A stretch of DNA of 64,000 bases from Halothece sp. PCC 7418. GTDB taxonomy: Bacteria; Cyanobacteriota; Cyanobacteriia; Cyanobacteriales; Rubidibacteraceae. Positions 12,687-47,031 of this stretch are shown here, in pieces. The position numbers and the translations under genes are program-made. The notes beneath the pieces are model-generated. The model was not told the DNA's origin and searched no databases. It saw nothing but the letters and a program-made list of their open reading frames with translations. Numbering within the stretch: the stretch's first letter is position 1; each line of letters begins with the position of its first letter. The stretch is from positions 1,426,001 to 1,490,000 of the forward strand of contig NC_019779.1 of the NCBI RefSeq assembly GCF_000317635.1, written 5' to 3'.

Positions 12687-12739
12687 GCGAATGACCAAAT
12701 AAATTTTCTCTTTGCCATTTTCGTGGTTCGCGTAGAAAG
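12687..12739. promoter_or_regulatory. Operator-like inverted repeat, shared CRISPR-island motif (site C)
   Basis: The left arm GCGAATGACCAA (12687-12698) is the exact reverse complement of the right arm of site B at 47012-47023. The right arm TTCGTGGTTCGCG (12720-12732) continues into TAGAAAG. The same TTCGCRTAGAAAG core is found before cas10 (33719-33739) and before the WYL gene (47012-47031). It lies about 60 bp before csx18 and 73 bp before the divergent gene. Confidence 0.5.
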
Positions 12740-12800
12740 ACTTCTCTGATTTAAAAAATCAGGATAGTTTGAACAGAGAAATGAGTTTTGAGAATTGCAA

Positions 12801-13070
12801 ATGTTTTTATCGCCTCGGGTTGCTTTGGTTCGGAATTTAGCGGTTGCTCTCTTTAATGGCGCGATCGCGCTGGTCATTTTGTTAATTGCTCCGATGGGGT
12901 TAGCAGGAGTGATCACCAATACCGTGATGATTGCTGTCGCCAGCTTTTTCAATGCGACCGCCTGTGATCGCATTGTGCTGTTTTTGCAAAGGGGTCAAGA
13001 TCCCCTAAAAACCAATCCTTTTTCTCCCTTAGAGCAGGATCAAAGTTCCTCTGATATCGAACAGGATTGA
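12801..13070 (+). CDS. csx18: Csx18-like small CRISPR-associated membrane protein
   Basis: An 89-residue protein with two membrane helices (LAVALFNGAIALVILLIA; LAGVITNTVMIAVASFFNA) and an acidic tail. The opening FLSPRVALVRNLAVALFNGA is what I recall for Csx18, a small family found beside cyanobacterial type III loci. Its function is not known. It is the gene just ahead of cas1. The upstream inverted repeat shared with cas10 and the WYL gene supports CRISPR association. A TTG start six bases earlier is possible. Confidence 0.6.
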   Translation: MFLSPRVALVRNLAVALFNGAIALVILLIAPMGLAGVITNTVMIAVASFFNATACDRIVLFLQRGQDPLKTNPFSPLEQDQSSSDIEQD

Positions 13071-13191
13071 AGGTGAAACCAGTCTCCTTTAATTTAGTGA
13101 TTCCATGGGTGATCAATTAGCACGACATCCGATCCCTCAACCCCCCGTTAAGGAGGATGAAGACAAAACAACTATAGCAATCCCATAGGAA

Positions 13192-13374
13192 TTGTAAATT
13201 AATCCCCCCTAGCCCCCCTTCGTAAGGTAGCTGAGTTTGGGGTAATTGAGCCGTCAATGAACGATTGTAAATTAATCCCCCCTAACCCCCCTTCGTAAGG
13301 TAGTTGAGTTTGGGGTAATTGAGCCGTCAATGAACGATTGTAAATTAATCCCCCCTAACCCCCCTTCGTAAGGG
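13192..13374. repeat. Three 36-37 bp repeats with two near-identical 36-37 bp intervening units, 73 bp period
   Basis: TTGTAAATTAATCCCCCCTA begins at 13192, 13265 and 13338. Each copy runs on to CTTCGTAAGG (36 bp), then an intervening TAGTTGAGTTTGGGGTAATT-type unit of 37 bp follows the first two. The third copy runs on into the normal continuation of the dispersed element (GGGGAACGG...). The two interveners differ by one base. The layout equals repeat-spacer-repeat-spacer-repeat, but a tandem duplication gives the same picture. Confidence 0.65.
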
Positions 13375-13664
13375 GGGAACGGTTAATCAACTTTTTACAT
13401 AAGATTTAGAACTGCTAGATCTCCTTTGAGGGTTGATCAATTAGCACGACATCCGATCCCGCCAACCCCCCGTTAAGGAGGATGAAGACAAAACAACTAT
13501 AGCAATCCCATAGGAATTGTAAATTAATCCCCCCTAACCTCCTCACGCTTGGCTCCGGCTTCGTAAGGGGGGAACGGTTAATCAACTTTTTACATAAGAT
13601 TTAGAACTGCTAGATCTCCTTTGAGGGTTGATCAATTAGCACGACATCCGATCCCGCCAACCCC

Positions 13665-13848
13665 CCTTTCAAAGGGGGGCGAAGGGGGGATTAGAGAAAC
13701 TTACGCTAATATTGATTCTATTTCTTCTTTTGCAGAATCCTTTCAAAGGGGGGGCGAAGGGGGGATTAGAGAAACGACAGAAGGTTAACTTCGGAAATCC
13801 TTCCTCATCGAACCTTTCAAAGGGGGGCGAAGGGGGGATTAGAGGAAC
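13665..13848 (+). CRISPR. CRISPR-like micro-array: three 36-37 bp repeats, two different 37-38 bp spacers
   Basis: Copies at 13665-13700, 13739-13775 and 13813-13848 start CCTTTCAAAGGGGGG and end GGATTAGAGAAAC (AGAGGAAC in the last). The interveners 13701-13738 and 13776-13812 are unrelated to each other. The period is 74 bp, equal to the mean of the main array. The 3' end GAAAC resembles the main repeat. The core is a dispersed cyanobacterial G-rich element (compare 38053-38090). The degenerate third copy would be the trailer end if read on the plus strand. It lies 31 bp before cas1. Confidence 0.4.
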
Positions 13849-13879
13849 ATCTAACTTTTTTAAGATAGTATTTAACATC

Positions 13880-14863
13880 ATGCACACGCTTTATGTTGCC
13901 CAGCAAGGGTGCCATGTTTGTCGAGACCAGCAAAAGCTACTGATTAAAAAAGGAGAGGACATCTTAGGGGAAGTGCAAATTCCACTCCTTGAACAAGTTT
14001 TAGTGTTTGGTCGCTCTCAAATTACCACCCAAGCCATTCAGGTTTGTTTGCAAGAAGATATTCCCATTGCCTTTTTATCGCGCATGGGCTATTGTTATGG
14101 GCGGATTATGCCCATTGAGCGGGGCTATCGTCAACTCTCCCGCTATCAACAGCAGTTAACGCCACAGGATCGACTGATTATCGCTCAACGAATTGTGGAA
14201 GCGAAGTTGAAAAATAGTCGAGTGTTCCTGATGCGCCAATATCGCACTCGTCAGAAAGACAGTATTGCACTAGCGATTAAATCTCTCAATTATTTTGCTC
14301 AGAAAACGTTAACCGTGAGTCAGCTTGACCAGTTGATGGGAATTGAAGGGTCGGGCGCAGTGCAATATTTTCAAGCGCTTGGGGAGTGTATCGCTTATGA
14401 TGAATTCAAATTACTAGCGCGATCGCGCCGTCCCCCCACCAACCCCACTAACGCCTTACTTAGTTTTGGTTATCAGATTTTGTGGAATCATCTGCTAACT
14501 TTAATTGAAATGCAAGGACTTGACCCCTATTATGCCTGTCTGCATCAAGGATCAGAACGTCATGCAGCTTTAGCCTCTGACCTCATTGAAGAGTTTCGGG
14601 TTCCTTTTGTGGATTCGCTGGTGTTGTGGTTAATTAATACTCGAACCATGAACCCAGAAGAAGATTTTCGCTATCAAGACGGCGGGTGTTTTCTCAATGC
14701 AGTCGGTCGCAAAAAGTTTCTCAGTGCTTGGTTAAAACGCATGGAACAACCCGTTGGAAGTGAAAAGCAACCGCGCTGGGATATCCTCACTCGCCAAATT
14801 CGGAAATATAAGCAGTTTGTTTATAATCCTATTGAGTTTTATACGCCCTACGAGATTCAGTAG
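13880..14863 (+). CDS. cas1: CRISPR-associated endonuclease Cas1
   Basis: Cas1 with Cas2 integrates new spacers. The 327-residue protein starts MHTLYVAQQGCHVC and has the beta-sheet N-domain. The helical catalytic domain shows E156 (MGIEGSGAVQYF), H222 (LHQGSERHAALASDL) and E237 (DLIEEFRVPFVDSL). No reverse transcriptase or Cas6 domain is fused. The open frame extends upstream through the G-rich repeats, but homologues begin at this ATG. cas2 follows after three bases. The long gap from the effector genes places adaptation and effector modules at opposite ends of the array. Confidence 0.93.
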   Translation: MHTLYVAQQGCHVCRDQQKLLIKKGEDILGEVQIPLLEQVLVFGRSQITTQAIQVCLQEDIPIAFLSRMGYCYGRIMPIERGYRQLSRYQQQLTPQDRLIIAQRIVEAKLKNSRVFLMRQYRTRQKDSIALAIKSLNYFAQKTLTVSQLDQLMGIEGSGAVQYFQALGECIAYDEFKLLARSRRPPTNPTNALLSFGYQILWNHLLTLIEMQGLDPYYACLHQGSERHAALASDLIEEFRVPFVDSLVLWLINTRTMNPEEDFRYQDGGCFLNAVGRKKFLSAWLKRMEQPVGSEKQPRWDILTRQIRKYKQFVYNPIEFYTPYEIQ

Positions 14864-14866: not shown

Positions 14867-15145
14867 ATGCAATTGTATGTGGTGACTTATGATATTCCTT
14901 GCGATAAACGACGGAAGAAAATTTCGGATTTATTGGAGGGCTATGGTCAACGGGTGCAGTTATCTGTGTTTGAATGTTGTCTGGAAAAAAGACAGTATGA
15001 ACAACTGAAAAAAAGACTGCAAAAACTGGTGAAACTCGATGAAGATAGTGTCCGCTTTTACCCTTTATCCGGTCATACCTTATCCCAAGTGGAAATTTGG
15101 GGTGGCGTTCCCCTTTCTCAACCCCCTGGGTCAACTATCATTTGA
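14867..15145 (+). CDS. cas2: CRISPR-associated protein Cas2
   Basis: A 92-residue ferredoxin-like protein starting MQLYVVTYDIPCDKRRKK, with the conserved Asp in YDIP, VQLSVFECCLEKRQYEQLKK in the middle and VRFYPLSGHTL near the end. It forms the Cas1-Cas2 integrase with the gene three bases upstream. The length and motif order are normal. Confidence 0.92.
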   Translation: MQLYVVTYDIPCDKRRKKISDLLEGYGQRVQLSVFECCLEKRQYEQLKKRLQKLVKLDEDSVRFYPLSGHTLSQVEIWGGVPLSQPPGSTII

Positions 15146-15207
15146 TTATCATTCTCAGTTTGCGCGATCGCGCTCCAACAATCAGCAATAATTTTTTCCA
15201 TGCCGAT

Positions 15208-15630: not shown

Positions 15631-15881
15631 CGTTGTCTATCCTCCCGCAATAGTTCAACGCTATCACTAAAACTCTGCTGTGAATGCTGTTGACGAGCTT
15701 GATCCACTTGTTCCCATGCGGTTTCAAAGTCTGATGGAGACAATATCATTTCAGTTTCTTGCAGTTGCTGTTCTAAGATACTTTCAATTTCCGCTTCAAG
15801 GGTGCGATTATGTTGTTTTGCTAAGGTTTCTAACTTTTCCAGCAAATCAGGATTAAGGTGAGATAACGTAATTTCACTCAT
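15627..15881 (-). CDS. vapB: VapB-type antitoxin (Arc/ribbon-helix-helix-like)
   Basis: An 84-residue protein from MSEITLSHLNPDLLEKLETL, a ribbon-helix-helix-type N-terminus (AKQHNRTLEAEIESILEQQL), with an acidic helical tail for toxin binding. An upstream start at 15923 is possible but would run towards the leader. It probably represses its own promoter, which faces the CRISPR leader. Confidence 0.75.
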   Translation of the reverse strand: MSEITLSHLNPDLLEKLETLAKQHNRTLEAEIESILEQQLQETEMILSPSDFETAWEQVDQARQQHSQQSFSDSVELLREDRQR

Positions 15882-16116: not shown

Positions 16117-19100
16117 GTCTCTTTTCCTAAGAGAAACTAATTGAATGGAAACAAGTGTCTAACACCACTTATAACATTTCTGTTAATCATTAAGTCTCTT
16201 TTCCTAAGAGAAACTAATTGAATGGAAACAACAATCAAGAATACATCAAAGCTAATTCAATTGCTTCAGGTCTCTTTTCCTAAGAGAAACTAATTGAATG
16301 GAAACAAAATAGTTCAACATTTTTTCTAGATCATCATAAGGTCTCTTTTCCTAAGAGAAACTAATTGAATGGAAACCAAGTCTTTATCCCCTGTATGAGA
16401 GGCGACTTCCGCGAGTCTCTTTTCCTAAGAGAAACTAATTGAATGGAAACTTTGCATTTGGTGTTTATTACAGAGGTAAAATAGCTTGGTGTCTCTTTTC
16501 CTAAGAGAAACTAATTGAATGGAAACACTTTAGCCTAGAAGAAAACGAACCGATTGACGGCTATGCGCCGTCTCTTTTCCTAAGAGAAACTAATTGAATG
16601 GAAACTCATAATGCTTCCAGTCTGGAATGCTCAGGGCACCCGATGTCTCTTTTCCTAAGAGAAACTAATTGAATGGAAACATTCGGAAGATGTAGTGGGA
16701 GTAGGCTGGTTACTTAGTCTCTTTTCCTAAGAGAAACTAATTGAATGGAAACCTCTAACATAACCCGCCTCTATGAAGAGGACGAAGAAGTCTCTTTTCC
16801 TAAGAGAAACTAATTGAATGGAAACTTTAAGGAGGTGGACTGCTCCTTTAGCAGTCTTGTGAATGTCTCTTTTCCTAAGAGAAACTAATTGAATGGAAAC
16901 TTCGGGTTGTCTTGCCAGAGGGCATCCCCTGCGGGAAGTCTCTTTTCCTAAGAGAAACTAATTGAATGGAAACAACTCTGATAACCAGATTCTCGGGATG
17001 ATCGTCGATGCGGTCTCTTTTCCTAAGAGAAACTAATTGAATGGAAACCCCCACTGCTACCTCAAACGAGGTGACTGTAGGTGGTATTGGTCTCTTTTCC
17101 TAAGAGAAACTAATTGAATGGAAACTGTCCCTCCGAGGTGATTGAATACCCATCAAGAAATGTCTCTTTTCCTAAGAGAAACTAATTGAATGGAAACGTC
17201 CATCCTGAGAATAGAAATCATTAGAATCGGACAGGTCTCTTTTCCTAAGAGAAACTAATTGAATGGAAACGTTTTCACCTCCTCAGGCGTTATATATTCC
17301 CTCTCATAGTCTCTTTTCCTAAGAGAAACTAATTGAATGGAAACCTCCAAAGTAAATAGTGATAGGGCTGCCCGTTCCTTCTGGGGTCTCTTTTCCTAAG
17401 AGAAACTAATTGAATGGAAACCTCTAAGTCCGCCTTCATCAGCCAATTGGCTCAGGCGTGTCTCTTTTCCTAAGAGAAACTAATTGAATGGAAACATAAG
17501 GAATAAGATCCTTTGGCCATTGACAGTAGTGGCTAGTCTCTTTTCCTAAGAGAAACTAATTGAATGGAAACACTTCCGCTTGGAATAGAAGTTCGTCTTA
17601 TAGACGAGGTCTCTTTTCCTAAGAGAAACTAATTGAATGGAAACCGCGGCGAGATATTGGTCACGCTCCTCACGGGAGGAGAGTCTCTTTTCCTAAGAGA
17701 AACTAATTGAATGGAAACAATTCGTACCAGAAGAAGTCGAACGACTTTTCAACCTCTTGTCTCTTTTCCTAAGAGAAACTAATTGAATGGAAACCTCTGC
17801 TAACTCGATCGTTGACAACTGAGCTACCTTGTCTCTTTTCCTAAGAGAAACTAATTGAATGGAAACCTTTTTTCTTACCTCCTACAGGCTTATCTAAGCT
17901 TAGTTGTCTCTTTTCCTAAGAGAAACTAATTGAATGGAAACGTCTCTGAGAAGCATTCCCACACGAAGTACGGCGCGCGGTGTCTCTTTTCCTAAGAGAA
18001 ACTAATTGAATGGAAACAGGAATTTGTTGTCTTAAAGACTGATTTATTTCTTCTAGTCTCTTTTCCTAAGAGAAACTAATTGAATGGAAACTTCGTAAAT
18101 GAGGCGACCTTCGTTATCGAAAGAGTTGTCTCTTTTCCTAAGAGAAACTAATTGAATGGAAACTCCTTTCTCTGCCACGCAAATGGCAGAAGTCCGAAGT
18201 CTCTTTTCCTAAGAGAAACTAATTGAATGGAAACCTATTAAGCGTGTGCCTCCGCCGCGGTTTTCACCGCCTACGTCTCTTTTCCTAAGAGAAACTAATT
18301 GAATGGAAACTCCTACGGACTAAAGTTCGTTGCCTAAGCCTGTAGGAGGTAAGAAAGTCTCTTTTCCTAAGAGAAACTAATTGAATGGAAACGGTCTGCC
18401 AAGTCAACATGGAGCTTATGTGTTTCGTATGTCTCTTTTCCTAAGAGAAACTAATTGAATGGAAACATTTGTAGTGTCCACCCAGTTTTGTACAGCTTGG
18501 TGTCTCTTTTCCTAAGAGAAACTAATTGAATGGAAACCCTTAGGGCTGCTCCACCGAACGAAGTTGTCCCGTACAGTGTAGTCTCTTTTCCTAAGAGAAA
18601 CTAATTGAATGGAAACTCGCCCGTTTCCGTAAGAAACGAACTGTATCACCTGTCTCTTTTCCTAAGAGAAACTAATTGAATGGAAACAAGCGGACAAAGT
18701 GGCAAAGGCGAACGAAGAAGCCTTCGATGTCTCTTTTCCTAAGAGAAACTAATTGAATGGAAACTCTACTTTACTACCGTAGTGAGCAGCAATCTTTTCA
18801 AGGGGTCTCTTTTCCTAAGAGAAACTAATTGAATGGAAACATGCGTTGTATTGTTTATATAGAGACCGTTATTTAGAGGTGTCTCTTTTCCTAAGAGAAA
18901 CTAATTGAATGGAAACTTCTCAAGACGGAGAGTTTGACACTATTGATACAGGTCTCTTTTCCTAAGAGAAACTAATTGAATGGAAACTTCGTCCGAAACG
19001 GACTCTGTAAAGGATAACGTTCATAAGTGGTCTCTTTTCCTAAGAGAAACTAATTGAATGGAAACCGATAGCCCTGCCCCATATGGGCGACTCCTTTACA

Positions 19101-22100
19101 GGACTTCGTCTCTTTTCCTAAGAGAAACTAATTGAATGGAAACCTGTTCGTCCTCAGAGCGAGAGCAAGAGATAACGAAGTCTCTTTTCCTAAGAGAAAC
19201 TAATTGAATGGAAACACATTCGATTCGTCTTACTTTATCCCGACTGTCGAGATGTCTCTTTTCCTAAGAGAAACTAATTGAATGGAAACTAATCTTTTCC
19301 TTCAGATCGCCGATTGGCTTGCTGTATTTGTCTCTTTTCCTAAGAGAAACTAATTGAATGGAAACTGGGCGTGTCTTCTGGGAGCTCATACCCAATATGG
19401 GGAGCAGTCTCTTTTCCTAAGAGAAACTAATTGAATGGAAACTAGGAATTACTGCTGGAAAGGTTCCAGTTAATCCATGGAGTCTCTTTTCCTAAGAGAA
19501 ACTAATTGAATGGAAACCTGGATGAGATGAGCCTTAAAGGAAATTGCTTCCTGGTCTCTTTTCCTAAGAGAAACTAATTGAATGGAAACCTAGAAACTCA
19601 TCTCCCCAGAAAGCTTCTTGGGGTCTCTTTTCCTAAGAGAAACTAATTGAATGGAAACCGTGCAATCTCTTCTTCAGGGTCTTTTGTTGTCTTAGGCTGT
19701 CTCTTTTCCTAAGAGAAACTAATTGAATGGAAACTCTGGAATAAAAAGTCGATTTTGAACGCAATGTCCAAGAGTCTCTTTTCCTAAGAGAAACTAATTG
19801 AATGGAAACAGTTACTGCCACAGTAGTAGCAGTCGTGCCCCATGCGGTGTCTCTTTTCCTAAGAGAAACTAATTGAATGGAAACGTAGAAGGTTCTTCCT
19901 CTACTCCTTCATCTTCAGGAATGTCTCTTTTCCTAAGAGAAACTAATTGAATGGAAACGAGGTATTTCTTGAACTCTTTCAAAGCCCAATCATACAGTCT
20001 CTTTTCCTAAGAGAAACTAATTGAATGGAAACCTGAGACAACCCTCGGAGGGTCTTTGCTTTGCCTGATTCATTCATAACGTCTCTTTTCCTAAGAGAAA
20101 CTAATTGAATGGAAACCATTTGGTTGTTGGAGAAAGTTTGATTGGTCATGGTAAGTGTCTCTTTTCCTAAGAGAAACTAATTGAATGGAAACGTTCAGCC
20201 CCTCTCCTTAAGTGCATAGATATTTCAAGTCTCTTTTCCTAAGAGAAACTAATTGAATGGAAACTCGACTCCCTTGAGTCTCGGGGGTTAGACCCAAAAG
20301 GTGTCTCTTTTCCTAAGAGAAACTAATTGAATGGAAACAAGTCTAACAAGGATAACGGAGGGTCTGCCCACATTGGTTGTCTCTTTTCCTAAGAGAAACT
20401 AATTGAATGGAAACTCGGTCACTCGCTGACCTTTACCGTTAGTAGCGAAGAGAGTCTCTTTTCCTAAGAGAAACTAATTGAATGGAAACCATTATAACCC
20501 ACTTCTCGAATCAAAGAAGTGTCACTGTAGTCTCTTTTCCTAAGAGAAACTAATTGAATGGAAACAACGGGAGCTTTTAGACCTAGCTAATACCCTTCTC
20601 CTCTCTGTCTCTTTTCCTAAGAGAAACTAATTGAATGGAAACGGCATTTATATTGTTTCTGATCCAGGTAGCAATACAGGTCTCTTTTCCTAAGAGAAAC
20701 TAATTGAATGGAAACATGTAGAGAATAGTTTATACAAAGACTACGTAGACTATTACTGTCTCTTTTCCTAAGAGAAACTAATTGAATGGAAACAATACTT
20801 TCACCACATAGCTATAATGGGCTGAGGTCGATAGTCTCTTTTCCTAAGAGAAACTAATTGAATGGAAACTTCTCCCTCTTCGAGTGGTACGGCAGGCGTC
20901 CACTCAGTCTCTTTTCCTAAGAGAAACTAATTGAATGGAAACAACTCAAATGAGAGCTCAAGGTTTGGAATTGTCACCTCGTCTCTTTTCCTAAGAGAAA
21001 CTAATTGAATGGAAACTAACGATGTCCAAATCAGTAAACTCTACAAATTTAGACTCGTCTCTTTTCCTAAGAGAAACTAATTGAATGGAAACTCGCTGCC
21101 GCTATCCTCTCGTTCCTAGTGGGAAACCTAAGTCTCTTTTCCTAAGAGAAACTAATTGAATGGAAACTTAGTCAGGGATTTGAGTAGGGGTTTTCCGCTT
21201 TTTAGGGTCTCTTTTCCTAAGAGAAACTAATTGAATGGAAACCTAAACTTAAGAGTAAGACAAGACCATTAAATACAGGTCTCTTTTCCTAAGAGAAACT
21301 AATTGAATGGAAACGAGAAGAGTTAGGTCTTCTTCCTCTGTCTCTTCTTCGTCTCTTTTCCTAAGAGAAACTAATTGAATGGAAACACTACCACGAGGGG
21401 TAGTTTAGTTAAAATGTATATTCCCAGTCTCTTTTCCTAAGAGAAACTAATTGAATGGAAACCTCTACGAAATTGCCTTGAGGGATTACTGTGAACATTG
21501 TGTCTCTTTTCCTAAGAGAAACTAATTGAATGGAAACCTCCAAAGAACTCCTTCTCAATGCGAGTATTTACTCTAGTCTCTTTTCCTAAGAGAAACTAAT
21601 TGAATGGAAACAATTGAGCTTTAGCTTTGCCTTTGGCATTATGTTGGAGGTCTCTTTTCCTAAGAGAAACTAATTGAATGGAAACTTCATACACTGCAAG
21701 TTGGTAATCCGTAAGGATTTCGTCTCTTTTCCTAAGAGAAACTAATTGAATGGAAACAGCTAAGCCATCTCGTCCCTTCTTCTTTATACGAGCTAGTCTC
21801 TTTTCCTAAGAGAAACTAATTGAATGGAAACTTAATTTTGGGACGACTTTCTTTTTCCATACCTTTAGTCTCTTTTCCTAAGAGAAACTAATTGAATGGA
21901 AACTCGTTCATAGTGAGTGTCAGAATGTCTTGGATCATTTGTCTCTTTTCCTAAGAGAAACTAATTGAATGGAAACTCGTCATTTCTTCTTCATCCACTT
22001 CCCAGACGGTGGCTGACTTGGGTCTCTTTTCCTAAGAGAAACTAATTGAATGGAAACTTTGATTGCCCTCCTTGGGCTTAAATTTGTCACTTAAGTCTCT

Positions 22101-33718: not shown

Positions 33719-33739
33719 TTCGCTGTTCGCATAGAAAGG
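33719..33739 (+). promoter_or_regulatory. Shared CRISPR-island motif before cas10 (site A)
   Basis: TTCGCTGTTCGCATAGAAAG matches sites B and C in the TTCGCRTAGAAAG core and in most of the preceding arm. A second AGAAAGGGATTG copy lies at 33774-33785, so the element may be paired. It is 24 bp after the last CRISPR repeat and 170 bp before the cas10 start. Confidence 0.4.
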
Positions 33740-33858
33740 GGTTGCAATTTCCGAAATTGGTTATAGGCTGAACAGAAAGGGATTGATAAGCAACTCGCCA
33801 AAATCATCTCTTGCTCAGTATTTTGGCGTTTGTTTAATCTTCCTTAAATCAACAGAAG

Positions 33859-33876: not shown

Positions 33877-33909
33877 AGAATAGCAAAATAGCCAATCAAA
33901 TTGGAACCT

Positions 33910-36909: not shown

Positions 36910-38034
<1,125 letters not shown>

Positions 38035-38049
38035 GGGGCTAACTCATTC

Positions 38050-38092
38050 CAGTTCCCCCCTTTCAAAGGGGGGCTAGGGGGGATTCCCCTTT
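38050..38092. repeat. G-rich dispersed element inside the cmr operon
   Basis: The palindromic CCCCCCTTTCAAAGGGGGGC core followed by TAGGGGGGATTCCCC is the same core as the 13665-13848 repeats. It lacks their AGAGAAAC 3' end. It lies between cmr3 and cmr4 and may attenuate readthrough. Confidence 0.6.
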
Positions 38093-38118
38093 CTAAAAAT
38101 TAAAATCAAGGACAGATC

Positions 38119-38970
38119 ATGAACACAATCTATTTTTACCTCCTCTCTCCTCTCCATACTGGCGGAACCACCCAAGAAGGCAACCTCGTCGGTATCGCCA
38201 GAGAATCTCACACCAATCTCCCCTATATCCCTTCTAGCACCATTCGTGGTCGTTTGCGGGCAATGGCGAAGGCTGAAGATGCAAAACAGGAAGAACAAGA
38301 AAAAGCCCAAAATCAACAAAAAAAAGATGAAGGAAAGGAAAAGCCAAAAAGAAAATCTTTTCGTTTATTTGGCACAGAATTAGATAACGCCCAACAACTT
38401 GAACAAGGGGATATTTGGGTCGGGGATGGATCATTACTCTGGGTTCCCGTTCCCTCTCTCAGTCATGGTGTTGTGTGGATTAGTTCTCCCTTTTTATTAC
38501 GCCGTTGGCAAAGCCGTCAACCACAATCTGCACATCAAACCGCAATTCCTGACCCCTATAGCTGTAACTTTAATCAAAATAGCAAAGTTTATCTTAAAGA
38601 TGCGATTATCAAATCTGATGAACTGAAAGCGTTTGACAACTGGCAATCTTTTGTTCCCAAACAAGCCAGCAGTATCGACAAAGTTTTAGTGCTTCCCGAC
38701 CAACATTGTGCGACTCTCATTCAAATGAGTTTGTGGCGACAAGTCAAGATCAAACTGGATGAACATAAAGTGGTCGATGGCGGTTTCCGCTATGAAGAAG
38801 CCATTCCCCCTGATACTCTCATGTATTTTACTTGGGGACTCACCAACCAAGCTAACGGAACTGGACAACAATCACAAAACGACTTCCAAACTTTAATTCA
38901 AAGTCACGACATCATCCAAATCGGCGGACAAGAAAGCCTCGGTCGCGGTTTTGTTCAACAATCTCAGTAG
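38119..38970 (+). CDS. cmr4: Cmr4 (Cas7-group RAMP), backbone subunit, catalytic Asp apparently absent
   Basis: Cmr4 forms the helical backbone and normally cuts target RNA every six bases with an Asp in a VDLP-type loop before the RE motif. The 283-residue protein starts MNTIYFYLLSPLHTGG. In its loop the run GNLVGIARESHTNLPYIPSS has Leu where that Asp is expected. Then comes TIRGRLRAMAK. A Lys/Glu-rich insertion sits near residues 55-75. The late GQESLGRGFV is the RAMP Gly-loop. Loss of backbone slicing is inferred from motif alignment only. Confidence 0.85.
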   Translation: MNTIYFYLLSPLHTGGTTQEGNLVGIARESHTNLPYIPSSTIRGRLRAMAKAEDAKQEEQEKAQNQQKKDEGKEKPKRKSFRLFGTELDNAQQLEQGDIWVGDGSLLWVPVPSLSHGVVWISSPFLLRRWQSRQPQSAHQTAIPDPYSCNFNQNSKVYLKDAIIKSDELKAFDNWQSFVPKQASSIDKVLVLPDQHCATLIQMSLWRQVKIKLDEHKVVDGGFRYEEAIPPDTLMYFTWGLTNQANGTGQQSQNDFQTLIQSHDIIQIGGQESLGRGFVQQSQ

Positions 38971-39050
38971 GGTGGGCACTGCCCACCATTACCCACCATG
39001 ATTAATTAACGATTATGTTGGGTTTCACTTCATTCTACCCAACCTACTTT
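38966..39050. repeat. Two palindromic repeats between cmr4 and cmr5
   Basis: GTAGGGTGGGCACTGCCCAC at about 38967-38987 is a dispersed palindrome whose full form is at 41444-41468. TTGGGTTTCACTTCATTCTA with ACCCAACCTAC follows at about 39018-39048. Both types are common cyanobacterial repeats. They may reduce expression of the distal cmr genes. Confidence 0.6.
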
Positions 39051-39071
39051 TTGACTGAGAAAGGAGAAATT

Positions 39072-39464
39072 ATGACTTTTGACCCCAGAACCATTGCAAC
39101 ACCCGTTTACGAAGCCTTACAAGACTTACGGATTCAACATAACAAAAACGAGTCACGCTTAAAAGAACAAAAAAGCCAAGCGGTTGAACTTTACACTTAC
39201 CTCGCCACTTGGGGAATGATGCGCCTAAAAGCTGAAGAACAAGCCCTCTCTCAAGACGGGAAAAAAGATGTCGTTAAAAAGTATTTTCAATGTCTCAAAA
39301 GTCTGACAGGAATTGAAGAATTAACGACAGTCCAAGGTTTAGAAACGATCAAAAACCTATCCACTGATGACTATTTGGGTTTAACAGGCTTAGGACTCGA
39401 AATTGCCCAAGAATTTAGCTTTTGGGCAAATGCCATCTATCACGATATTACAGGAGAACAATAG
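39072..39464 (+). CDS. cmr5: Cmr5, small subunit
   Basis: A 130-residue all-helical protein, the length and layout of Cmr5, which lines the target channel of the Cmr complex. The segment AVELYTYLATWGMMRLKAEE and the LTGLGLEIAQEFSFWANAIY end fit. AAGGAG at 39061-39066 fixes the start at 39072. The next gene starts four bases after the stop. Confidence 0.82.
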   Translation: MTFDPRTIATPVYEALQDLRIQHNKNESRLKEQKSQAVELYTYLATWGMMRLKAEEQALSQDGKKDVVKKYFQCLKSLTGIEELTTVQGLETIKNLSTDDYLGLTGLGLEIAQEFSFWANAIYHDITGEQ

Positions 39465-39468
39465 AATC

Positions 39469-41403
39469 ATGACACACAGTAAAGCATTAGAAAAACCCAA
39501 TAAACCTGCTAACCCCCAAAAAAAGGTGATTGAGAAAAAGCCCAAGAAAGTAATTTCCAGTGGTGGAAATGGTGGTGGCGGAAACCGTAACCGAGGCGGT
39601 GGTGGGGGAAATCATCATGGAAACGGCGGGGGTAATAATAATCCTCAACCCTCTCCCTGGCTAGACCCTGATCACCAACCGCCAACGAGTCATAATGCCA
39701 GTTTTATCGAATACTTGCGCTGGATGCGTCCGCCTGAACATCCGCAAAAAGACGGGACAAAGGTTGAGATATTAAATAAAGCCCAAGATAACCCCGACTA
39801 TCGCCAGCGACTGCAACAACTTAACGATCGCGCTCGCGCTATTGCTCAAGAATATTTTACCGCCAAAACAACATGGCGCATCCGCGTGGGAGGACATCGC
39901 GGACCCGAAAGCATTCTTCTCCCTGCATTCGACCATTTAGGCGTTCCTTATCTCCCTTCTAGCACCTTACGAGGAGTCGCCCGAACCCAAGCCATCCGAG
40001 AAATCATGGCTAAAGAGAACATAAACTGGAAAAGTGCAGAAGAAAAGATTGCGCCCTATTTCGGTTCAATTAATACTAATAACAACCCAGATAAAGCAGG
40101 AAAAGTCGTCTTTCTCGATGCGTATCCTGTGGCTTGCAAAAATGCAGGAATCACAATGGATATGACGAATAATATCTGGAATTGGGATAATAATCAGTTA
40201 GCTTATAGTCCTAATCCCAATTCCTTTTTCTCCTTAAAAGATGTGGAATTTCTGGTTGGTTTACGCCTTGCGAGTAACTGTCAAGATCAACAAGTTCTCA
40301 AACAAGTCAAGCAATGGCTGATTGAAGGTTTAAATGCTGGTGTGGGTTCACAAATTAATTCGGGTTACGGTCAACTCACTACAGAGAAAAATAAGAAAAG
40401 TGCTAATGAGTTTTTAAGAGTGAGTTTTGGTTTAGAAGGACAACTCATTCACGGCTGTCAACATTTTACCCAGTGGAACTGGAATAACAATAGAAATGAA
40501 TGGCAAATGCGAGGAAATCCTCAAGCAGAGGTGCGTCCAGTTGCTTTTAAGTCCATGCTTCGTTATTGGTTTCGAGCGTTTGCTTTAGGGGTTTTATCTC
40601 CTCAACAAGTCCAAGACTGGGAAGCTGCTATTTTCGGTGGTATTAGTCCACAAAAACGAGGCTTTTTAGAGGTCAGAATTCATCAGGGTAAACTAGAACA
40701 AAGAGAACCTCGACCGAATCATAATGGAAAACAAGATAAATGTGGTGAACAATCAGGAGTGCTAATTCTGGGCTTATCTTCAGAAACTCAGGAATCCGAA
40801 CGTAAGACAGTTCAATCATTAGTTAAAAATCTAACTTGGATGATGTTTCAATTAGGTGGAATTGGTCAAGGGGCAAGACGACCTTGTTATTCACGTAAAA
40901 CTAGCGATCGCGCTCCTTGGTTTCGGGGGTCAACATTTCTCGCTGGAGACGAAGATTTTTGGGAGATTCCTGAAGATATTAAAGAATTTCATCGGTTGTT
41001 CTGTCAGAAATTAAAAGGCTTTTATTCTGCGTTATCTCAGTTAACTGGACAGTCAATTAACCCTAAAACTTTAAGAGAAGTTGGTCAAGTCAATCAACGA
41101 AATTGGCAAGAAGCAGTTGATGGAAATTGTCGCATTGTTGTTTGTTCTGGGAAGAGTAATTCTAATAAACCCTTTGCATTATCTGTCCTTCACGATCGCG
41201 CTTTTTATCATAATGGCGATTACGATGGGTTTCTCTGTGGAAAAGTTCGTGGTGGGGTAAAACCGTCTCCTGTTTGGATCGCTGATACAGGTGATTTCCA
41301 AGTAGTAACAGTATTTGGTGCAACGGCTGATCCGCGTGAAAAGTATTTAAAAGAATTGCATAATCAATCTGCTGAATACCTTCCCATATTCCCTCTAAAA
41401 TAG
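39469..41403 (+). CDS. Cmr6-Cmr1 fusion, two RAMP domains
   Basis: A 644-residue protein. After a basic, Gly/Asn/His-rich disordered start (residues 1-65), the first half is Cmr6-like: ILLPAFDHLGVPYLPSSTLR, then GVARTQAIREI, and WLIEGLNAGVGSQINSGYGQ. The second half from about residue 320 is Cmr1-like: VSFGLEGQLIHGCQHFTQW, VRPVAFKSMLRYWFRAFALG, FGGISPQKRGFLEVR, then IGQGARRPCYSRKT. Cmr1 caps the target 3' end and Cmr6 links it to the backbone, so a fusion fits neighbouring positions in the complex. No separate cmr1 or cmr6 is present. Confidence 0.85.
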   Translation: MTHSKALEKPNKPANPQKKVIEKKPKKVISSGGNGGGGNRNRGGGGGNHHGNGGGNNNPQPSPWLDPDHQPPTSHNASFIEYLRWMRPPEHPQKDGTKVEILNKAQDNPDYRQRLQQLNDRARAIAQEYFTAKTTWRIRVGGHRGPESILLPAFDHLGVPYLPSSTLRGVARTQAIREIMAKENINWKSAEEKIAPYFGSINTNNNPDKAGKVVFLDAYPVACKNAGITMDMTNNIWNWDNNQLAYSPNPNSFFSLKDVEFLVGLRLASNCQDQQVLKQVKQWLIEGLNAGVGSQINSGYGQLTTEKNKKSANEFLRVSFGLEGQLIHGCQHFTQWNWNNNRNEWQMRGNPQAEVRPVAFKSMLRYWFRAFALGVLSPQQVQDWEAAIFGGISPQKRGFLEVRIHQGKLEQREPRPNHNGKQDKCGEQSGVLILGLSSETQESERKTVQSLVKNLTWMMFQLGGIGQGARRPCYSRKTSDRAPWFRGSTFLAGDEDFWEIPEDIKEFHRLFCQKLKGFYSALSQLTGQSINPKTLREVGQVNQRNWQEAVDGNCRIVVCSGKSNSNKPFALSVLHDRAFYHNGDYDGFLCGKVRGGVKPSPVWIADTGDFQVVTVFGATADPREKYLKELHNQSAEYLPIFPLK

Positions 41404-41862: not shown

Positions 41863-42978
41863 ATGCGAAATACACTCATTTGTACTGTCGGAACCAGCTT
41901 ATTTAATAACCTCAAACGGGCTGAAGGAGAAATTCATCAAGCCTTTTCTCAGCAAAACTGGAAGCAAGTGGCGTTACTCCTCAATCAGTTAGAAAATACC
42001 GATCGCGCTTGTGGGGCTGAAATTAATTCTATTGCCCGAATTTGCCAAAAAAACTTACTCAGTCACTACTTAAAATTAGTTTTTCTAGTCTCTGATACAG
42101 AAGATGGAAAACACACCGGACAACTCCTAAAGCTGTACTATGGAAATCACAAAAATCCTATTCAATTTGAAACGGTTGAAGTTAACGTTTTAACGGGATT
42201 GAGAGATGATAACATTAAAGCCTTTCGCCAAGAGGGATTAAAAAACTTAGTCCGAGAAATTAGTACCCAAGTTCAACATTCTTCTCCAGAATATATTGCC
42301 ATTAACGCCACAGGAGGCTATAAAGCCCAAATTTCTTTTGCAGGAATGATTGGACAAGCATTAGGGATTCCTGTTTATTATTTATTTGAACGCTTCTCGG
42401 AAGTGATTGAACTTCCTCCGCAACCGATCGCGCTTGATTTAGGATTTTGGATTGATCATTATGTGGTATTTGAACAACTCGAAGCCGAAGAAACGCTGGT
42501 GAAATCGGATCTCGCCCATGATTTTAATGCTGCTTATTTCAATACCCTCATTGATGAGGAAATCATTGAACAAACTCCTGTAATTAGTCTCTCTGCAACA
42601 GGAATGTTATTCCATGCGCGATCGCGCTTACAATTTCGGAAAAAACAGACCGCTATTCTAGATTTAATCCCCGAAGATCAGACCTTACCAGAAAACAAAC
42701 AGATTAGCCTTAGAGAGGATCATGGTAAAGATAAACTCATCGCATTTAGCCAAAAATTAGTTCAATCTCCTTATATTACAAAAGTCATTAATTCTCTTCC
42801 CTTTAATCCTCATCAAAATAACCCCATCCGCCGAACTTATCCCGATGGGAAAGTTGAATTTGTTTTAACCTGGACAGATCGCGGACTGGGAATTTGCTTA
42901 CAAACCACAGGGCGTAACCTTGCTGAAACGAACACCATTGCGATTTATCTCGCTGAGAAATTTACCCAGTCCACTTAA
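41863..42978 (+). CDS. CARF-domain effector, probable C-terminal RelE-like domain
   Basis: A 371-residue protein of the APE2256 (TIGR02619) type. It starts MRNTLICTVGTSLFNNL; the CARF motifs CTVGTSL and NATGGYKAQISF (near residue 145) bind cyclic oligoadenylate. The last 90 residues (SPYITKVINSLPFNPHQ, PIRRTYPDGKVEFVLTWTDR, QTTGRNLAETNTIAIYL) look like the RelE-type interferase tail of CARF-RelE proteins such as Cami1. This assignment is from pattern memory. It should be switched on by cOA made by the Cas10 here. It is convergent with the next gene, seven bases apart. Confidence 0.7.
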   Translation: MRNTLICTVGTSLFNNLKRAEGEIHQAFSQQNWKQVALLLNQLENTDRACGAEINSIARICQKNLLSHYLKLVFLVSDTEDGKHTGQLLKLYYGNHKNPIQFETVEVNVLTGLRDDNIKAFRQEGLKNLVREISTQVQHSSPEYIAINATGGYKAQISFAGMIGQALGIPVYYLFERFSEVIELPPQPIALDLGFWIDHYVVFEQLEAEETLVKSDLAHDFNAAYFNTLIDEEIIEQTPVISLSATGMLFHARSRLQFRKKQTAILDLIPEDQTLPENKQISLREDHGKDKLIAFSQKLVQSPYITKVINSLPFNPHQNNPIRRTYPDGKVEFVLTWTDRGLGICLQTTGRNLAETNTIAIYLAEKFTQST

Positions 42979-42985: not shown

Positions 42986-44197
42986 TTAAATCACTAATTC
43001 TGGAAATAATTGACTCAAATCATCAAGGAGATTATTTTTAACATATCGACCTAAGTTATCTGCTGCAATTCCCGTTTCTCGCATTTGACAATGAGCGATA
43101 TCATTACGATATTCTGTTAACTTTGACCAAGTGCTACTTAAAACTTCTGCATCTTGAACGAATGTGATAATTGGTTGTTCAAAGTTTCTATTTAGACCGA
43201 TCATTTTTCCCAACTGCTGTTCTATTTTCCCTCTCTCATCACGGCTTAAATAATCAACTTTTTCCAGATAGCAAAAAGCAGAAACGATCCACTCTCTCGC
43301 TAATAAAATTGCTTGCGTCCCTAATTGCTTAGAAACATACCACCGTAAAAGTAAAAACTGTTTTTCTAGAACTAATTTTAGATCTGATTCACGACTATTA
43401 GCCACAGCAAACTGTCCATATTGTTCTTGAATGGGATTCAGTAAAAGCTCAAACGGTTTAGCAAAAACTCCAATTTCATCACTCAAGCGTTCCGTAGAGA
43501 ATTGTTGTATTTTCCCAGCATCGTCAAGGGTATCCATTGCCCGTGCATACTCCAAAGATTGAGAAAATTTAAGAATTTTATCCCCAAAGCCTTTTAATTG
43601 AGTTGGTCGCGCTTCTCCTTTTTGAGGTTGATTTTGTTTATAAAAATCTCCCTGAATCGTTGTTAACAAATTTCCTAATTCAACCGCTGATCCTGTTGTT
43701 AAAAATTTATCAGTTGCAGTCAACCAATCTAATAGCTTGATCGCCGAAGTAAGGTCAAAAATCGGGGGCTGATCGCGATTGACTTCAAATGCACCATAAT
43801 AGACTCCTTGAATGTTCACATTCTTAGCTTTTTGTAGAAAAGCACCTGCTAATAACACCAGCAAAGGGAGAGACCGAAAAGCATGAGTAATATCAAAACT
43901 AATTTCTGTATCAGAATTAACTGCATTAACAACAGCTTCAAAAATTTGCCAAATTTCAGTTTCTGATTGACCTGACGGAATATCTACAAAAGTACAATCA
44001 TAACTTGAGTCGATCCGCTTTAAAAATGCTTGACTATGCTTCTCCCTTGCTTCAGAAGTGACAAATATTTTAATCTTGTTCGGTTTCAAAAACTCAGCCA
44101 AGGCTTCTGCGACATAAGGAGTTTCTTTAGTCTGATCTTGCCAAGTGTAATTGGTCGTGTTGTAATTCCCCGTTCCTAAGAATGTTAAAAGTTCCAT
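42986..44197 (-). CDS. Csx1/Csm6-type CARF-HEPN ribonuclease
   Basis: A 403-residue protein. The N-terminal CARF domain opens MELLTFLGTGNYNTTNY and has FDITHAFRSLPLLVLL, the DxTHG-type segment of the TIGR02221/Csx2 group. The C-terminal helical HEPN domain carries RNDIAH (R364-x4-H369), the RNase active site. cOA binding in CARF activates RNA cleavage and can cause dormancy. It is convergent with the other CARF gene, so the cell has two different effectors on one signal. Confidence 0.85.
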   Translation of the reverse strand: MELLTFLGTGNYNTTNYTWQDQTKETPYVAEALAEFLKPNKIKIFVTSEAREKHSQAFLKRIDSSYDCTFVDIPSGQSETEIWQIFEAVVNAVNSDTEISFDITHAFRSLPLLVLLAGAFLQKAKNVNIQGVYYGAFEVNRDQPPIFDLTSAIKLLDWLTATDKFLTTGSAVELGNLLTTIQGDFYKQNQPQKGEARPTQLKGFGDKILKFSQSLEYARAMDTLDDAGKIQQFSTERLSDEIGVFAKPFELLLNPIQEQYGQFAVANSRESDLKLVLEKQFLLLRWYVSKQLGTQAILLAREWIVSAFCYLEKVDYLSRDERGKIEQQLGKMIGLNRNFEQPIITFVQDAEVLSSTWSKLTEYRNDIAHCQMRETGIAADNLGRYVKNNLLDDLSQLFPELVI

Positions 44198-44279
44198 AGA
44201 AGTCTCAATTTAATTCTAGTGAAATTTGTTCTCATAACCTATTCACCAGTTTCTCATATTTTTATGGAATTTGATCTCT

Positions 44280-44963
44280 TTAAAAGGCTTGGACTTGATT
44301 CTTCAGCATACGAAGTCCAGACCAATAAGTTGAATTATCTCCCAGTCCCATACTGTCGAAAAGAGTGGTAAATGCAGAGTCGAGGAAATTTAAGTCATCC
44401 TCTGCATCTGGTAATTCTTCAACAATGGCTCTCTCTTTTTCAGCAAAAGCATTTCGTCCTAAAGGATGATCAGCTTCGTTATGAAACGTTGTCCCAAAAT
44501 CAATAATATAGGGTTGCCAACCTTGTTTATTTTTGTCAATGTCAATGACAATATTCTTAGCATGAAGGTCGCCATGAATCCATCCCGCTTCCCAAAATTG
44601 ATTTAACATCTGACCAACAGCTTGACATAACTCTAAATAAAAATTGTCTGGATAACTCCCTAGGATAAACTCTTCTAGATATTCTTCTAAAGTGGTTCCT
44701 TCATCAATTTTTTCCATTTGAAAAGCATTCGGATGCCCAAAAACTCCTTCTTCTAAATTCGGTTGAGGAGTAATCTTTAAATCCTCTAATTCTACTAATA
44801 CTTGAAATTCCCAATGAGTGCTGTCTTCACCCACTTTATCGGCTTTTATAATTTGGTTATTCTCCACTTCAATTAAATCTCCTCGATTTCCTAAGCGCGA
44901 TCGCGCCGAAAAAGTTTGAAGATTAGATATCCGTTGCGCGATCGTTAAAATATTAGATTGCAT
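44280..44963 (-). CDS. Protein-kinase-fold (phosphotransferase-like) protein
   Basis: A 227-residue protein with the catalytic loop WIHGDLHAKNIVID and metal loop IIDFGTTFHNE of the kinase/APH fold. The N-lobe is short (FQMEKIDEGTTLEEYLEEF) and no clear glycine loop is seen. It could phosphorylate a protein or small molecule; the target is unknown. It is the last gene of a minus-strand run behind the membrane protein and the duplicated-motif protein, inside the CRISPR island. Confidence 0.65.
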   Translation of the reverse strand: MQSNILTIAQRISNLQTFSARSRLGNRGDLIEVENNQIIKADKVGEDSTHWEFQVLVELEDLKITPQPNLEEGVFGHPNAFQMEKIDEGTTLEEYLEEFILGSYPDNFYLELCQAVGQMLNQFWEAGWIHGDLHAKNIVIDIDKNKQGWQPYIIDFGTTFHNEADHPLGRNAFAEKERAIVEELPDAEDDLNFLDSAFTTLFDSMGLGDNSTYWSGLRMLKNQVQAF

Positions 44964-45092
44964 TCGTTCCTCTCCGTATCAATTAAAATTCAAGTAATAC
45001 CATTTGCAAGAAATAACGTAGAGGTAAACGGCAGTTCGCCCTTATTAGATGTAGCATGAGTAATCACAGTTGGTATAACCTCAGTATCAGTT

Positions 45093-45677
45093 TTAAAGTT
45101 CATTCTTTCTCTGATGCTGTTCAAAACAACGACGCAAATATCGCTCTAATTCAGGATACCTACATTCTCCTGTTGTTCTCACTTCGTCAATAAATAATTG
45201 TAGAAGTCGCATTTGACGAGGATAAGGTTTAACCTCTTCTGGCTGCTCAACAACAGGAGTTTCCTCAGTGACACTCACTTCACTGGAACTGCTCTCAACA
45301 GCAGGCGTTTCCGCAGACTCTGGCTTAGAAGCTAAAGGACAGAAAAATGGCTGAGTCACTTCCGTAGCAGAGATTGTGTCTCTTTCCTCTACAGGAGATG
45401 CACTAGAATCAGTCTCTTCAATCTCAGATTGATCGACTAATGAAGGATCTTCTGTCTCTTCAGGTGATGCAATGTCATCTGTGGATAAAGAATCTTCTAT
45501 TTCTTCCGCCGATTCAGGTTCACCAGCAGGGGAATTAATGCTTCGACTAGGCTTCCCATAATAATGAGTTTGTTCTGCTAAATCAACTAATTCTGGATAG
45601 TCATAAACTCCCGTCCGTTTCACCTCTTGAGCAAATAATTGAAGTAAGTGTAGTTCTCGCTGTGCGTTATTGATCAT
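45093..45677 (-). CDS. Unknown protein with duplicated terminal helical motif and acidic linker
   Basis: About 194 residues. A 30-residue unit appears twice: QRELHLLQLFAQEVKRTGVY followed by DYPELVDL near the N-terminus, and PRQMRLLQLFIDEVRTTGEC followed by RYPELERY near the C-terminus. Between them lie about 110 acidic Ser/Glu/Pro-rich residues likely to be disordered. I do not recognise the family. The start at 45677 overlaps the upstream gene's stop by 11 bases, so the two are coupled. A longer frame from 45710 is possible. Confidence 0.6.
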   Translation of the reverse strand: MINNAQRELHLLQLFAQEVKRTGVYDYPELVDLAEQTHYYGKPSRSINSPAGEPESAEEIEDSLSTDDIASPEETEDPSLVDQSEIEETDSSASPVEERDTISATEVTQPFFCPLASKPESAETPAVESSSSEVSVTEETPVVEQPEEVKPYPRQMRLLQLFIDEVRTTGECRYPELERYLRRCFEQHQRKNEL

Positions 45678-46920
45678 TGTTATGTTGTTGATTATAATAG
45701 CGTCGAGCATAAGCGCGGAATTGTTCTTCTAACCAACGATCGCGCTCGGTCCGAATTTCATCATTCCAGGACATTTGAACATCACTACGGCGAGAATAAA
45801 GCATTAATTTCCCACAAGAAACCAAACTGGTAATCACCGATAATAAGAAGAAAAATAACGATAAGCCCATACTAGAAATATCTAAGCGCAATAATTTCCC
45901 TACAAAGTTTTCAAGGGCGAGTTGACTTAGCACTAAACTAGAACGAATTTCTCCTGATTCTGTAAATGCTTGCTCATAGGTTTGAGGATAGGCTCGTTGT
46001 AAAAAGATTAGATCATTACTGATTTCAGTTTTTAATAACTGCTTGGCTTCAAAGCGATTTTTTGCCTGTTCATAATTCATAAAAGCCTGTTCTTCTAAAC
46101 GGGATACTTGACGACAAACTGGTAATTTTTCTAACGCCAATTGTTGCCAATTTTGAGCGCGATCCGCCCAAGAGCCATATAAAGAAACATAGAGAGAATC
46201 CCAACGGGGATTAGTTCGCTCCAGCCGATTTAATACGGCTTCTCCTTTCTCACAACGCTCTTTCACGGCTTGATAACGAGGATGTTCTACACTTTTTAAG
46301 TTCTCTAAATTTTCTGTCTCTTCCGCCACTTGTTCTGCAATTAAAGTTTGAGCATGAATTTGATTGAGTTGACTCCGATTATTTAACAGTTCAACTCCCG
46401 CCCCTGTGGCAAAAGATTGTAAAATATTGAGAGGAATTAACCCCATAATCGCTGCCCAAGTTGACCATTGATAAGCATTTTGGCTTCCCCGCACTACACT
46501 ACTAGCAATGAGATTTCCAAACTTCAAAATTGCTAAATTAATGGCAAAGCTGAGAAATAATGCTGGGAAATTCCCTAGATTTTGACAAGCAAAAAAGAAC
46601 AGAGGGGCATTCCCTAAAAAATCAAAGTTATTACTAGCAGTAACAGTTAACGCCGTCACTTTGGCATCCCCTTTTACTTTAGGCGTGACATAAGCAGTTC
46701 CGTAATACTCTTTAGAATCGGCAATAAATAAGTCTTTAATTCCAGACAGAATTGGTTGCAATTTATTTTTCTCCTGAGTCTCTTCAACCGCAATGCCATC
46801 AACTTCTTTCACTAAATCAGCATAGTCAGGATTGGTTTCAATCCATTGAATCAAAGCTAAATCATTATAAAACTCTGGGGGGAATGCTTCACTTTGGTTT
46901 GAGAAATTGCTATCGTTCAT
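45667..46920 (-). CDS. Unknown coiled-coil membrane protein, CRISPR-island associated
   Basis: A 417-residue protein with membrane segments near residues 105-135 (PALFLSFAINLAILKF), 150-170 (WAAIMGLIPLNILQSF) and 350-370 (MGLSLFFFLLSVITSLVS). Between them is a long charged helical stretch (about 180-330) of coiled-coil type. I do not recognise it. It is divergent from the WYL regulator and shares its operator-like inverted repeat, which suggests joint control. A membrane-effector or anchoring role in the type III response is possible but unproven. Confidence 0.65.
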   Translation of the reverse strand: MNDSNFSNQSEAFPPEFYNDLALIQWIETNPDYADLVKEVDGIAVEETQEKNKLQPILSGIKDLFIADSKEYYGTAYVTPKVKGDAKVTALTVTASNNFDFLGNAPLFFFACQNLGNFPALFLSFAINLAILKFGNLIASSVVRGSQNAYQWSTWAAIMGLIPLNILQSFATGAGVELLNNRSQLNQIHAQTLIAEQVAEETENLENLKSVEHPRYQAVKERCEKGEAVLNRLERTNPRWDSLYVSLYGSWADRAQNWQQLALEKLPVCRQVSRLEEQAFMNYEQAKNRFEAKQLLKTEISNDLIFLQRAYPQTYEQAFTESGEIRSSLVLSQLALENFVGKLLRLDISSMGLSLFFFLLSVITSLVSCGKLMLYSRRSDVQMSWNDEIRTERDRWLEEQFRAYARRYYNQQHNNDQ

Positions 46921-46986
46921 GTGCGTTTATTTTTAACGGCATAACTGTATTATTCCCCCTTTCTTTGGTTTTGTTTGATCGTCCCA

Positions 46987-47031
46987 CGCGAACAACCAAG
47001 ACACAAAAAAGTTGGTCATTCGCGTAGAAAG
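46987..47031. promoter_or_regulatory. Operator-like inverted repeat between WYL gene and membrane-protein operon (site B)
   Basis: CGCGAACAACCAA (46987-46999) and TTGGTCATTCGCG (47012-47024) are inverted copies with 11 of 13 matches, 12 bp apart. The right arm runs into TAGAAAGG. Site C contains the same right-arm sequence on the opposite strand, and site A the same core. It lies in the 179-bp divergent gap, so it could control both directions. Confidence 0.55.

Follow-up and report, generated by a model that had tools for sequence, protein, structure and literature searches.

To our knowledge, it is largely open how type III systems of clustered regularly interspaced short palindromic repeats (CRISPR) are switched on. 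Among the regulators with a WYL domain, CapW is an immune-linked repressor, and PafBC is a mycobacterial activator with the order HTH-WYL-WCX (HTH, helix-turn-helix) that serves RecA-NDp promoters with a poor -35. It has been reported that single-stranded DNA at the WYL domains activates PafBC, which acts at promoters with a poor -35 (PMC11804915). Sll7009, with a winged HTH and a WYL domain, is a negative regulator connected to a type I-D system (PMC10212523, PMC4012209), and RtcR is an activator of an RNA repair operon that is regulated by damaged RNA (PMC7790460). Here we describe a short element that occurs at three places (sites A, B and C) in the CRISPR island of Halothece sp. PCC 7418, within a stretch of 64,000 nucleotides (nt; NC_019779.1, positions 1,426,001 to 1,490,000) that we call the window and whose positions are used throughout. 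A comparison of sequences makes it likely that these sites are the upstream elements of activator-type promoters, which would form the regulon of a kinase-WYL protein (WYLK) and include its own gene. Among the literature matches listed, from a search with subscription papers mostly outside its reach, there was no report of the element or of a kinase-WYL regulon.

Five half-sites at three places

The original prediction had given the sequences of sites A, B and C, and all three were read back in the window as described. The motif is indeed shared by the three places, but neither site B nor site C is a single fixed palindrome. Each consists of two outward-facing half-sites at unequal spacing (31 nt between the TTCGC cores in B, 40 nt in C), and site A is a lone half-site. 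Across 12 listed pairs the core distances range from 28 to 147 nt; we therefore prefer independent half-sites, and a fixed-spacing palindrome bound by a dimer was rejected. A structured RNA was rejected as well, as the window has no Rfam match at the gathering threshold. Site C lies between the gene of a 108-aa protein and csx18, site A between the CRISPR array and cas10, and site B between C3a124 and the WYLK gene. The half-site consensus is TTCGTCATTCGCAT, and both B-right and C-right read TTSGTSRTTCGCGTAGAAAG. In the following list the ranks are those among all positions of the window on both strands, scored with a matrix from 23 sites of other WYLK loci (see below), and offsets are counted from the end of the 14-mer.

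12685..12698, minus strand: half-site C-left, TTGGTCATTCGCTC, rank 3; predicted -10 AATAAT at 12648-12653 (minus strand, offset 31), predicted start at about 12641, 27 nt before the gene starting at 12614
12720..12733, plus strand: half-site C-right, TTCGTGGTTCGCGT, rank 2; predicted -10 TAGTTT at 12765-12770 (plus strand), predicted start at about 12777
33719..33732, plus strand: half-site A, TTCGCTGTTCGCAT, 23 nt past the last CRISPR repeat, rank 6 (13.2 bits); predicted -10 TAGGCT at 33764-33769 (plus strand, offset 31), leader of 125 nt to cas10
46986..46999, minus strand: half-site B-left, TTGGTTGTTCGCGT, rank 4 (14.3 bits); predicted -10 AATAAT at 46949-46954 (minus strand), leader of 22 nt to the gene starting at 46920
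47012..47025, plus strand: half-site B-right, TTGGTCATTCGCGT, rank 1; predicted -10 TACAGT at 47057-47062 (plus strand), leader of 31 nt to the WYLK gene

The five half-sites thus take ranks 1, 2, 3, 4 and 6; rank 5 (13.9 bits, at 51514) falls within another gene. A genome-wide motif scan had been proposed as a check, and in the 4,179,170-base genome TTCGCRTAGAAAG has exactly three perfect matches, every one in the CRISPR island, with about 0.25 expected by chance on both strands (our estimate) and five further places at one mismatch. Within the window, TTCGCGTAGAAAG is found exactly at 12727-12739 and 47019-47031, and site A has the variant TTCGCATAGAAAG at 33726-33738. With up to three mismatches TTCGCGTAGAAAG gave 18 window matches against about 20 expected, so that only near-exact matches are informative. 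TTGGTCATTCGC is exact at 12687-12698 (minus strand) and 47012-47023 (plus strand), and at no third place in the window.

The degenerate pattern TTSGTSRTTCGC has 12 places in the genome, against six for the reversed control pattern, and no further regulon members were recognised among them. Three are half-sites of the window, one precedes a paralogue of WYLK, seven are inside open frames and one is intergenic in a repeat-like stretch. The paralogue (58%; G000:C1:2862233-2864251, locus L049) is located among housekeeping-type genes, is preceded at about 236 nt by a site of its own, and has 57% relatives in genomes G150 and G327.

Promoter geometry and the sign of control

All three plus-strand half-sites of the window have TAnnnT at offset 31, and both minus-strand half-sites have AATAAT there. 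In a set of 50 sites, to which five sites of the Halothece clade had been added by coordinate, 24 have a TAnnnT that begins at offset 31 and nine have one at offset 30, against a total of 43 for the other 41 offsets (about one each). This test is independent of the letters of the motif itself, and without the five added sites and B-right the count at offset 31 is 18 of 44. Ordered by falling matrix score, the fraction of sites with TAnnnT at 30/31 runs 9/14, 9/15, 13/23, 7/26, 13/105, 13/330 and 178/4813 (the last for scores 0-4), whereas the counts in the same bins at the control offsets 24/25 are 0, 1, 3, 1, 7, 9 and 184. The sites have a fixed phase and orientation to the -10, and they are associated with WYLK.

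Upstream of the -10 the likeness to TTGACA peaks at offset 8 with a mean of 2.32 of 6, corresponding to a spacer of 17 nt. The -35 signal is weak, since the downstream offsets 35 and 36 match TTGACA as well or better (2.54 and 2.36). Because the distances within the pairs vary, it seems that every half-site serves a promoter of its own, and the inverted repeats can be read as back-to-back divergent promoters. The predicted leaders measure 22-31 nt, except for the 125 nt before cas10.

The promoter geometry suggests activation as the sign of control. An activator that touches RNA polymerase would require just such an element, asymmetric, of constant direction and phase, and placed shortly before a weak -35. 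Activation is favoured because this arrangement goes together with a PafBC-like structure of the regulator. More specifically, the half-site would cover about -57 to -44, directly upstream of the weak -35, and have the start of the -10 at offset 31. WYLK would bind the half-site through its two HTH-like units and contact the polymerase in the way of its structural relative PafBC, and transcription would rise when the WYL part holds a nucleic-acid or nucleotide ligand. More speculatively, the kinase domain could act on that ligand.

The same regulon might carry the opposite sign, with WYLK repressing the promoters until a ligand releases it, in the manner reported for BrxR and Sll7009 and also of CapW. 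Immune-linked WYL repressors have been described (PMC11804915, PMC9122601), which weighs against activation, deletion of Sll7009 raised the mature CRISPR RNA of type I-D (PMC10212523), and a site before the regulator's own gene is compatible with autorepression too. However, the element lies upstream of the -35 and not over the -35/-10, its orientation and phase to the -10 are fixed, the -35 match is poor, and by structure the part behind the kinase comes closest to PafBC, an activator. We consider repression unlikely on these grounds.

The element in other cyanobacteria

Relatives of WYLK were found in 268 of 388 cyanobacterial genomes at E 0.001, and among the matches listed many have the kinase domain only; the neighbourhoods of about 40, nearly all full-length, were taken. 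An unseeded motif discovery in the 350 nt upstream of 41 WYLK genes, which excluded the loci of the window and of plasmid pEu1 (see below) and kept paralogue loci of the same genomes, returned TTCGTCATTCGCAT with a log-likelihood of 132, against 44-50 for three shuffles. The same motif came from seven csx18/cas1 upstream regions (56 against 33-40 shuffled) and a close variant from eight cas10 upstream regions (59 against 34-37); the window and pEu1 are part of both sets, and there is overlap between WYLK regions and several of the cas10 regions. As the related genomes are not independent, these figures are descriptive.

The matrix was built from 23 sites of the 41-region set. At 16 bits or more it found 52 sites in 877 kb around 43 WYLK genes, a count that is not independent since part of these loci trained the matrix, versus none in 417 kb of control DNA, which is independent of it. 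The controls comprise 27 cas10 loci that have no WYLK nearer than 1.5 kb (151 kb in all), 45 kb of Synechocystis pSYSA and 221 kb of viral contigs, each with no such site. Of the 52 sites, 47 are outside open frames of at least 110 aa, and 43 of these face the start of an open reading frame within 450 nt. On pSYSA the stretch 58000-103307, with a kinase-only relative and with the Sll7009 locus outside it, has no site (best 12.3 bits). The viral contigs hold at least 12 loci with a relative, and the 12 listed have the kinase part only.

We also looked from the side of cas10. Among 30 cas10 loci the window has site A and genome G372 has a 17.0-bit site that faces away; in the other 28 the stretch read reaches 9.4 bits at most, and for L156 and L166, with partial cas10 matches, that stretch is not a true upstream region. 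WYLK or part of one occurs somewhere in 15 of 29 cas10 genomes, and four cas10 loci lie near a distant WYL relative (26-33%).

In Euhalothece natronophila Z-M001 an orthologue of WYLK (85%) is encoded on plasmid pEu1, divergent from cas10. The pattern was widened to TTCGCRTRGAAAV after inspection of pEu1, and it has three exact copies in the Z-M001 genome, all on this plasmid: one precedes csx18/cas1, and the other two form a back-to-back pair in the gap from cas10 to WYLK. Ahead of csx18, the left half-site points towards a homologue (72%) of the 108-aa gene and likewise shows AATAAT at offset 31. Compared with the window, Cas1 is 93% and Cas2 91% identical and Cas10 only 31%; by this comparison operator and regulator are kept in pEu1 while the effector module differs. 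At least one exact match to TTCGCRTRGAAAV is among the matches listed for the relative G327. As an observation in its own right, TTCGCGTRGAGAC, one mismatch off the widened motif, has dozens of copies among the matches listed on the G327 chromosome and resembles a dispersed repeat.

The plasmids of Geminocystis NIES-3709 and Picosynechococcus PCC 7002 have WYLK two genes behind a reverse transcriptase gene, which in Geminocystis scores best against retron-type models (PADLOC/NCBIfam, locus L045). Sites of 16.7 and 19.4 bits lie upstream of the two reverse transcriptase loci, and WYLK may therefore serve several defence systems. In PCC 7002, two plasmids encode a WYLK. The reverse transcriptase gene, a hypothetical gene and WYLK stand in a row at L045:7500-11540 and L046:17993-22067, with the operator upstream of the first. 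L046 has a further site, an exact one, between WYLK and the methyltransferase and AlkB genes behind it. The kinase-only relative of pSYSA (L181:35674-37345, pSYSA 93673-95344) precedes an AlkB gene by two genes, which echoes the order WYLK-methyltransferase-AlkB of pAQ5 in PCC 7002. A CRISPR-associated protein of pSYSA (TIGR03985), considered as a link to WYLK, has no similarity to it.

The original prediction, a CRISPR regulon connected with the kinase-WYL gene, receives good support from this comparison, through the unseeded motif, the contrast between 52 sites at 43 loci and none in the controls, and pEu1. Several observations weigh against it. An intergenic site of 16 bits or more is absent from 17 of the 43 WYLK loci, among them pEu1 with its variant sites, and in the window itself A and B-left are under this threshold. 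Of six loci taken after the matrix was fixed, four have no site, one has three (TAnnnT at 31 in one of them) and one has a borderline 16.0-bit site without a -10. In L053/L161 WYLK stands beside cas10 and no site was found; some WYLK-side sites in the Nostoc-like loci L056, L057 and L061 lack TAnnnT at 30/31; and related loci inflate the site counts. Moreover, a scan of 376 genomes for the exact 14-mer gave 23 places (at least three for the reversed pattern), and in the 2-3 kb or so around each, 11 have a match to WYLK or cas1/cas2/csx18, four have weaker cas-type matches only and eight have no cas or WYLK match. More distant relatives of WYLK may use diverged sites: L076 and L078 have 12-16-bit sites after which, at offset 30 or 31, the -10 positions are occupied by A and T.

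These gaps bear on a second alternative, in which type III loci of cyanobacteria share the element as a conserved part of their promoters, where it is bound by another factor (for instance a sigma factor or host regulator) and is only co-inherited with WYLK. Binding by WYLK is a prediction, and the 17 loci without a strong site would fit such a factor. Nevertheless, the 27 cas10 loci away from WYLK have no site of 16 bits or more, the WYLK loci with a reverse transcriptase carry it with no cas genes in the stretch read, and pEu1 has kept regulator and sites next to a different Cas10 module, so that we regard this alternative as very improbable. The inverted repeats and the three copies in 34 kb could also recall a non-regulatory dispersed repeat or small mobile element copied within the island, an idea that is hardly tenable given that only about 14-20 bp are common, the flanks are unlike, the phase to the -10 does not change and other genomes have the element before the corresponding genes.

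The predicted regulon and its candidate regulator

If WYLK activates, the five half-sites would switch on together csx18-cas1-cas2, the cas10-cmr-CARF genes, C3a124-C3a123-kinase-csx1, the gene of the small protein and WYLK itself.

12288..12614, minus strand: 108-aa protein, no Pfam or NCBIfam match, hydrophobic stretches by eye
12795..13070, plus strand: csx18 (NCBIfam NF040558, 94 bits, cut-off 50)
13712..14863, plus strand: cas1 (Pfam Cas_Cas1)
14867..15145, plus strand: cas2 (Pfam CRISPR_Cas2)
16117..33695, plus strand: CRISPR array, 237 identical 36-nt repeats
33901..41403, plus strand: type III-B genes (cas10, cmr3, cmr4, a small open reading frame, a RAMP protein)
41863..42978, plus strand: CARF protein (CARF7, DUF2103/RelE-like)
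42986..46920, minus strand: predicted operon (PADLOC and NCBIfam) of C3a124 (45667-46920), C3a123 (45093-45710), a small kinase-like protein (44280-44963) and csx1 (42986-44197)
47100..49169, plus strand: WYLK (polynucleotide-kinase-like, two HTH-like units, WYL-like, WCX)

The cas10-cmr genes and the group from C3a124 to csx1 presumably form one operon each. The former have the composition of a type III-B locus, with cas10 (cmr2), cmr3, cmr4 and RAMP proteins; the small open reading frame in the position of cmr5 has no family match, and the RAMP protein matches Cmr6 weakly. As the Cas1 match starts at residue 60, the true start of cas1 is probably later, near 13868. Homologues of the 108-aa protein in pEu1 (72%) and L061 (40%) have a site upstream; for the one in L063 (31%) no site was found close by. 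The array leader was rejected as a member, with no operator match in 15143-16120 (best 6.3 bits), and the array would thus have no site of its own in the regulon. The csx18-cas1 gap (13107-13850) contains several families of direct repeats (36-111 nt), and the cas2-array gap (15208-15923) two short minus-strand open reading frames that by eye resemble a toxin-antitoxin pair with a PIN-type toxin.

WYLK matches Pfam AAA_33 and WCX (24.7 bits, cut-off 23.9), PafC at residues 645-679 and the PADLOC WYL model at 440-680 (E 5.4e-15). Pfam WYL was not found in WYLK of the window and stays under its cut-off of 21.8 in the homologue L058 (15.9 bits). The units 184-285 and 290-400 form an internal repeat (hhalign 92%, E 5.6e-7, 38 columns); five C-terminal parts of WYLK gave no Pfam HTH match, and one stand-alone relative a sub-threshold DeoR-type HTH. 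A structure model from 27 sequences has a mean predicted local distance difference test (pLDDT) of 82.8 and a predicted template modelling score (pTM) of 0.59, with low confidence at residues 371-440; a two-sequence model (pLDDT 37) was discarded. A chain with two HTH-like units would be well matched to an asymmetric site. Foldseek matches the kinase domain to the polynucleotide kinase of Clostridium thermocellum (4gp6, E 1.3e-9), and the best match of the part behind it is 9fnd_Y, a PafBC chain bound to RNA polymerase (prob 1.00, E 2.4e-8). The root mean square deviation of the latter is 13 over 415 columns (TM 0.38 by target), meaning that the parts are alike and their arrangement differs. 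Residues K16, D36, R39 and R119 are invariant in 27 homologues and aligned with the C. thermocellum kinase. By sequence, WYLK has the P-loop lysine, the acceptor-site DxxR and the lid arginine of a polynucleotide 5'-kinase, to which we assign the corresponding catalytic roles by assumption.

With so strict a promoter geometry, the regulon can be predicted from sequence, and one regulator would link spacer acquisition, interference, signalling effectors and the accessory genes C3a123, C3a124 and the small protein. Only tentatively, we propose a wider role in which this kinase-fused, single-chain relative of PafBC is a broad cyanobacterial defence activator. It would sense nucleic-acid fragments made during infection, its kinase reading or resetting their 5' end. 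Through one element with the -10 at 31 nt it would then turn on its own gene together with those of adaptation and interference and the effector and accessory genes. The fragments could stem from the activity of Csx1/Cas10, or be DNA made by the retron-type reverse transcriptases of Geminocystis and Picosynechococcus.

Of the described systems, PafBC is similar in that its chain matches the part of WYLK behind the kinase, in the WCX match and in activation at a poor -35, which WYLK would share. Its activation by single-stranded DNA at the WYL domains suggests a nucleic-acid signal for WYLK. In contrast to PafBC, WYLK combines two HTH-like units and a fused polynucleotide-kinase-like domain in a single chain, its motif and spacing are unlike, and it is linked to CRISPR and retron-type genes instead of DNA repair. 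RtcR, an activator controlled by damaged RNA, offers an idea for the signal of WYLK, but it is a CARF, AAA+ and HTH protein (PMC4012209). Sll7009 resembles WYLK as a WYL protein linked to a cyanobacterial CRISPR locus (Synechocystis type I-D). Like WYLK, the BrxR-type WYL regulators are encoded in defence islands; they are repressors, and no kinase is mentioned in the available part of the source (PMC9122601), whereas the geometry of the WYLK sites suggests activation at several promoters. If WYLK does activate, it would be unlike the immune-linked WYL repressors treated in PMC11804915.

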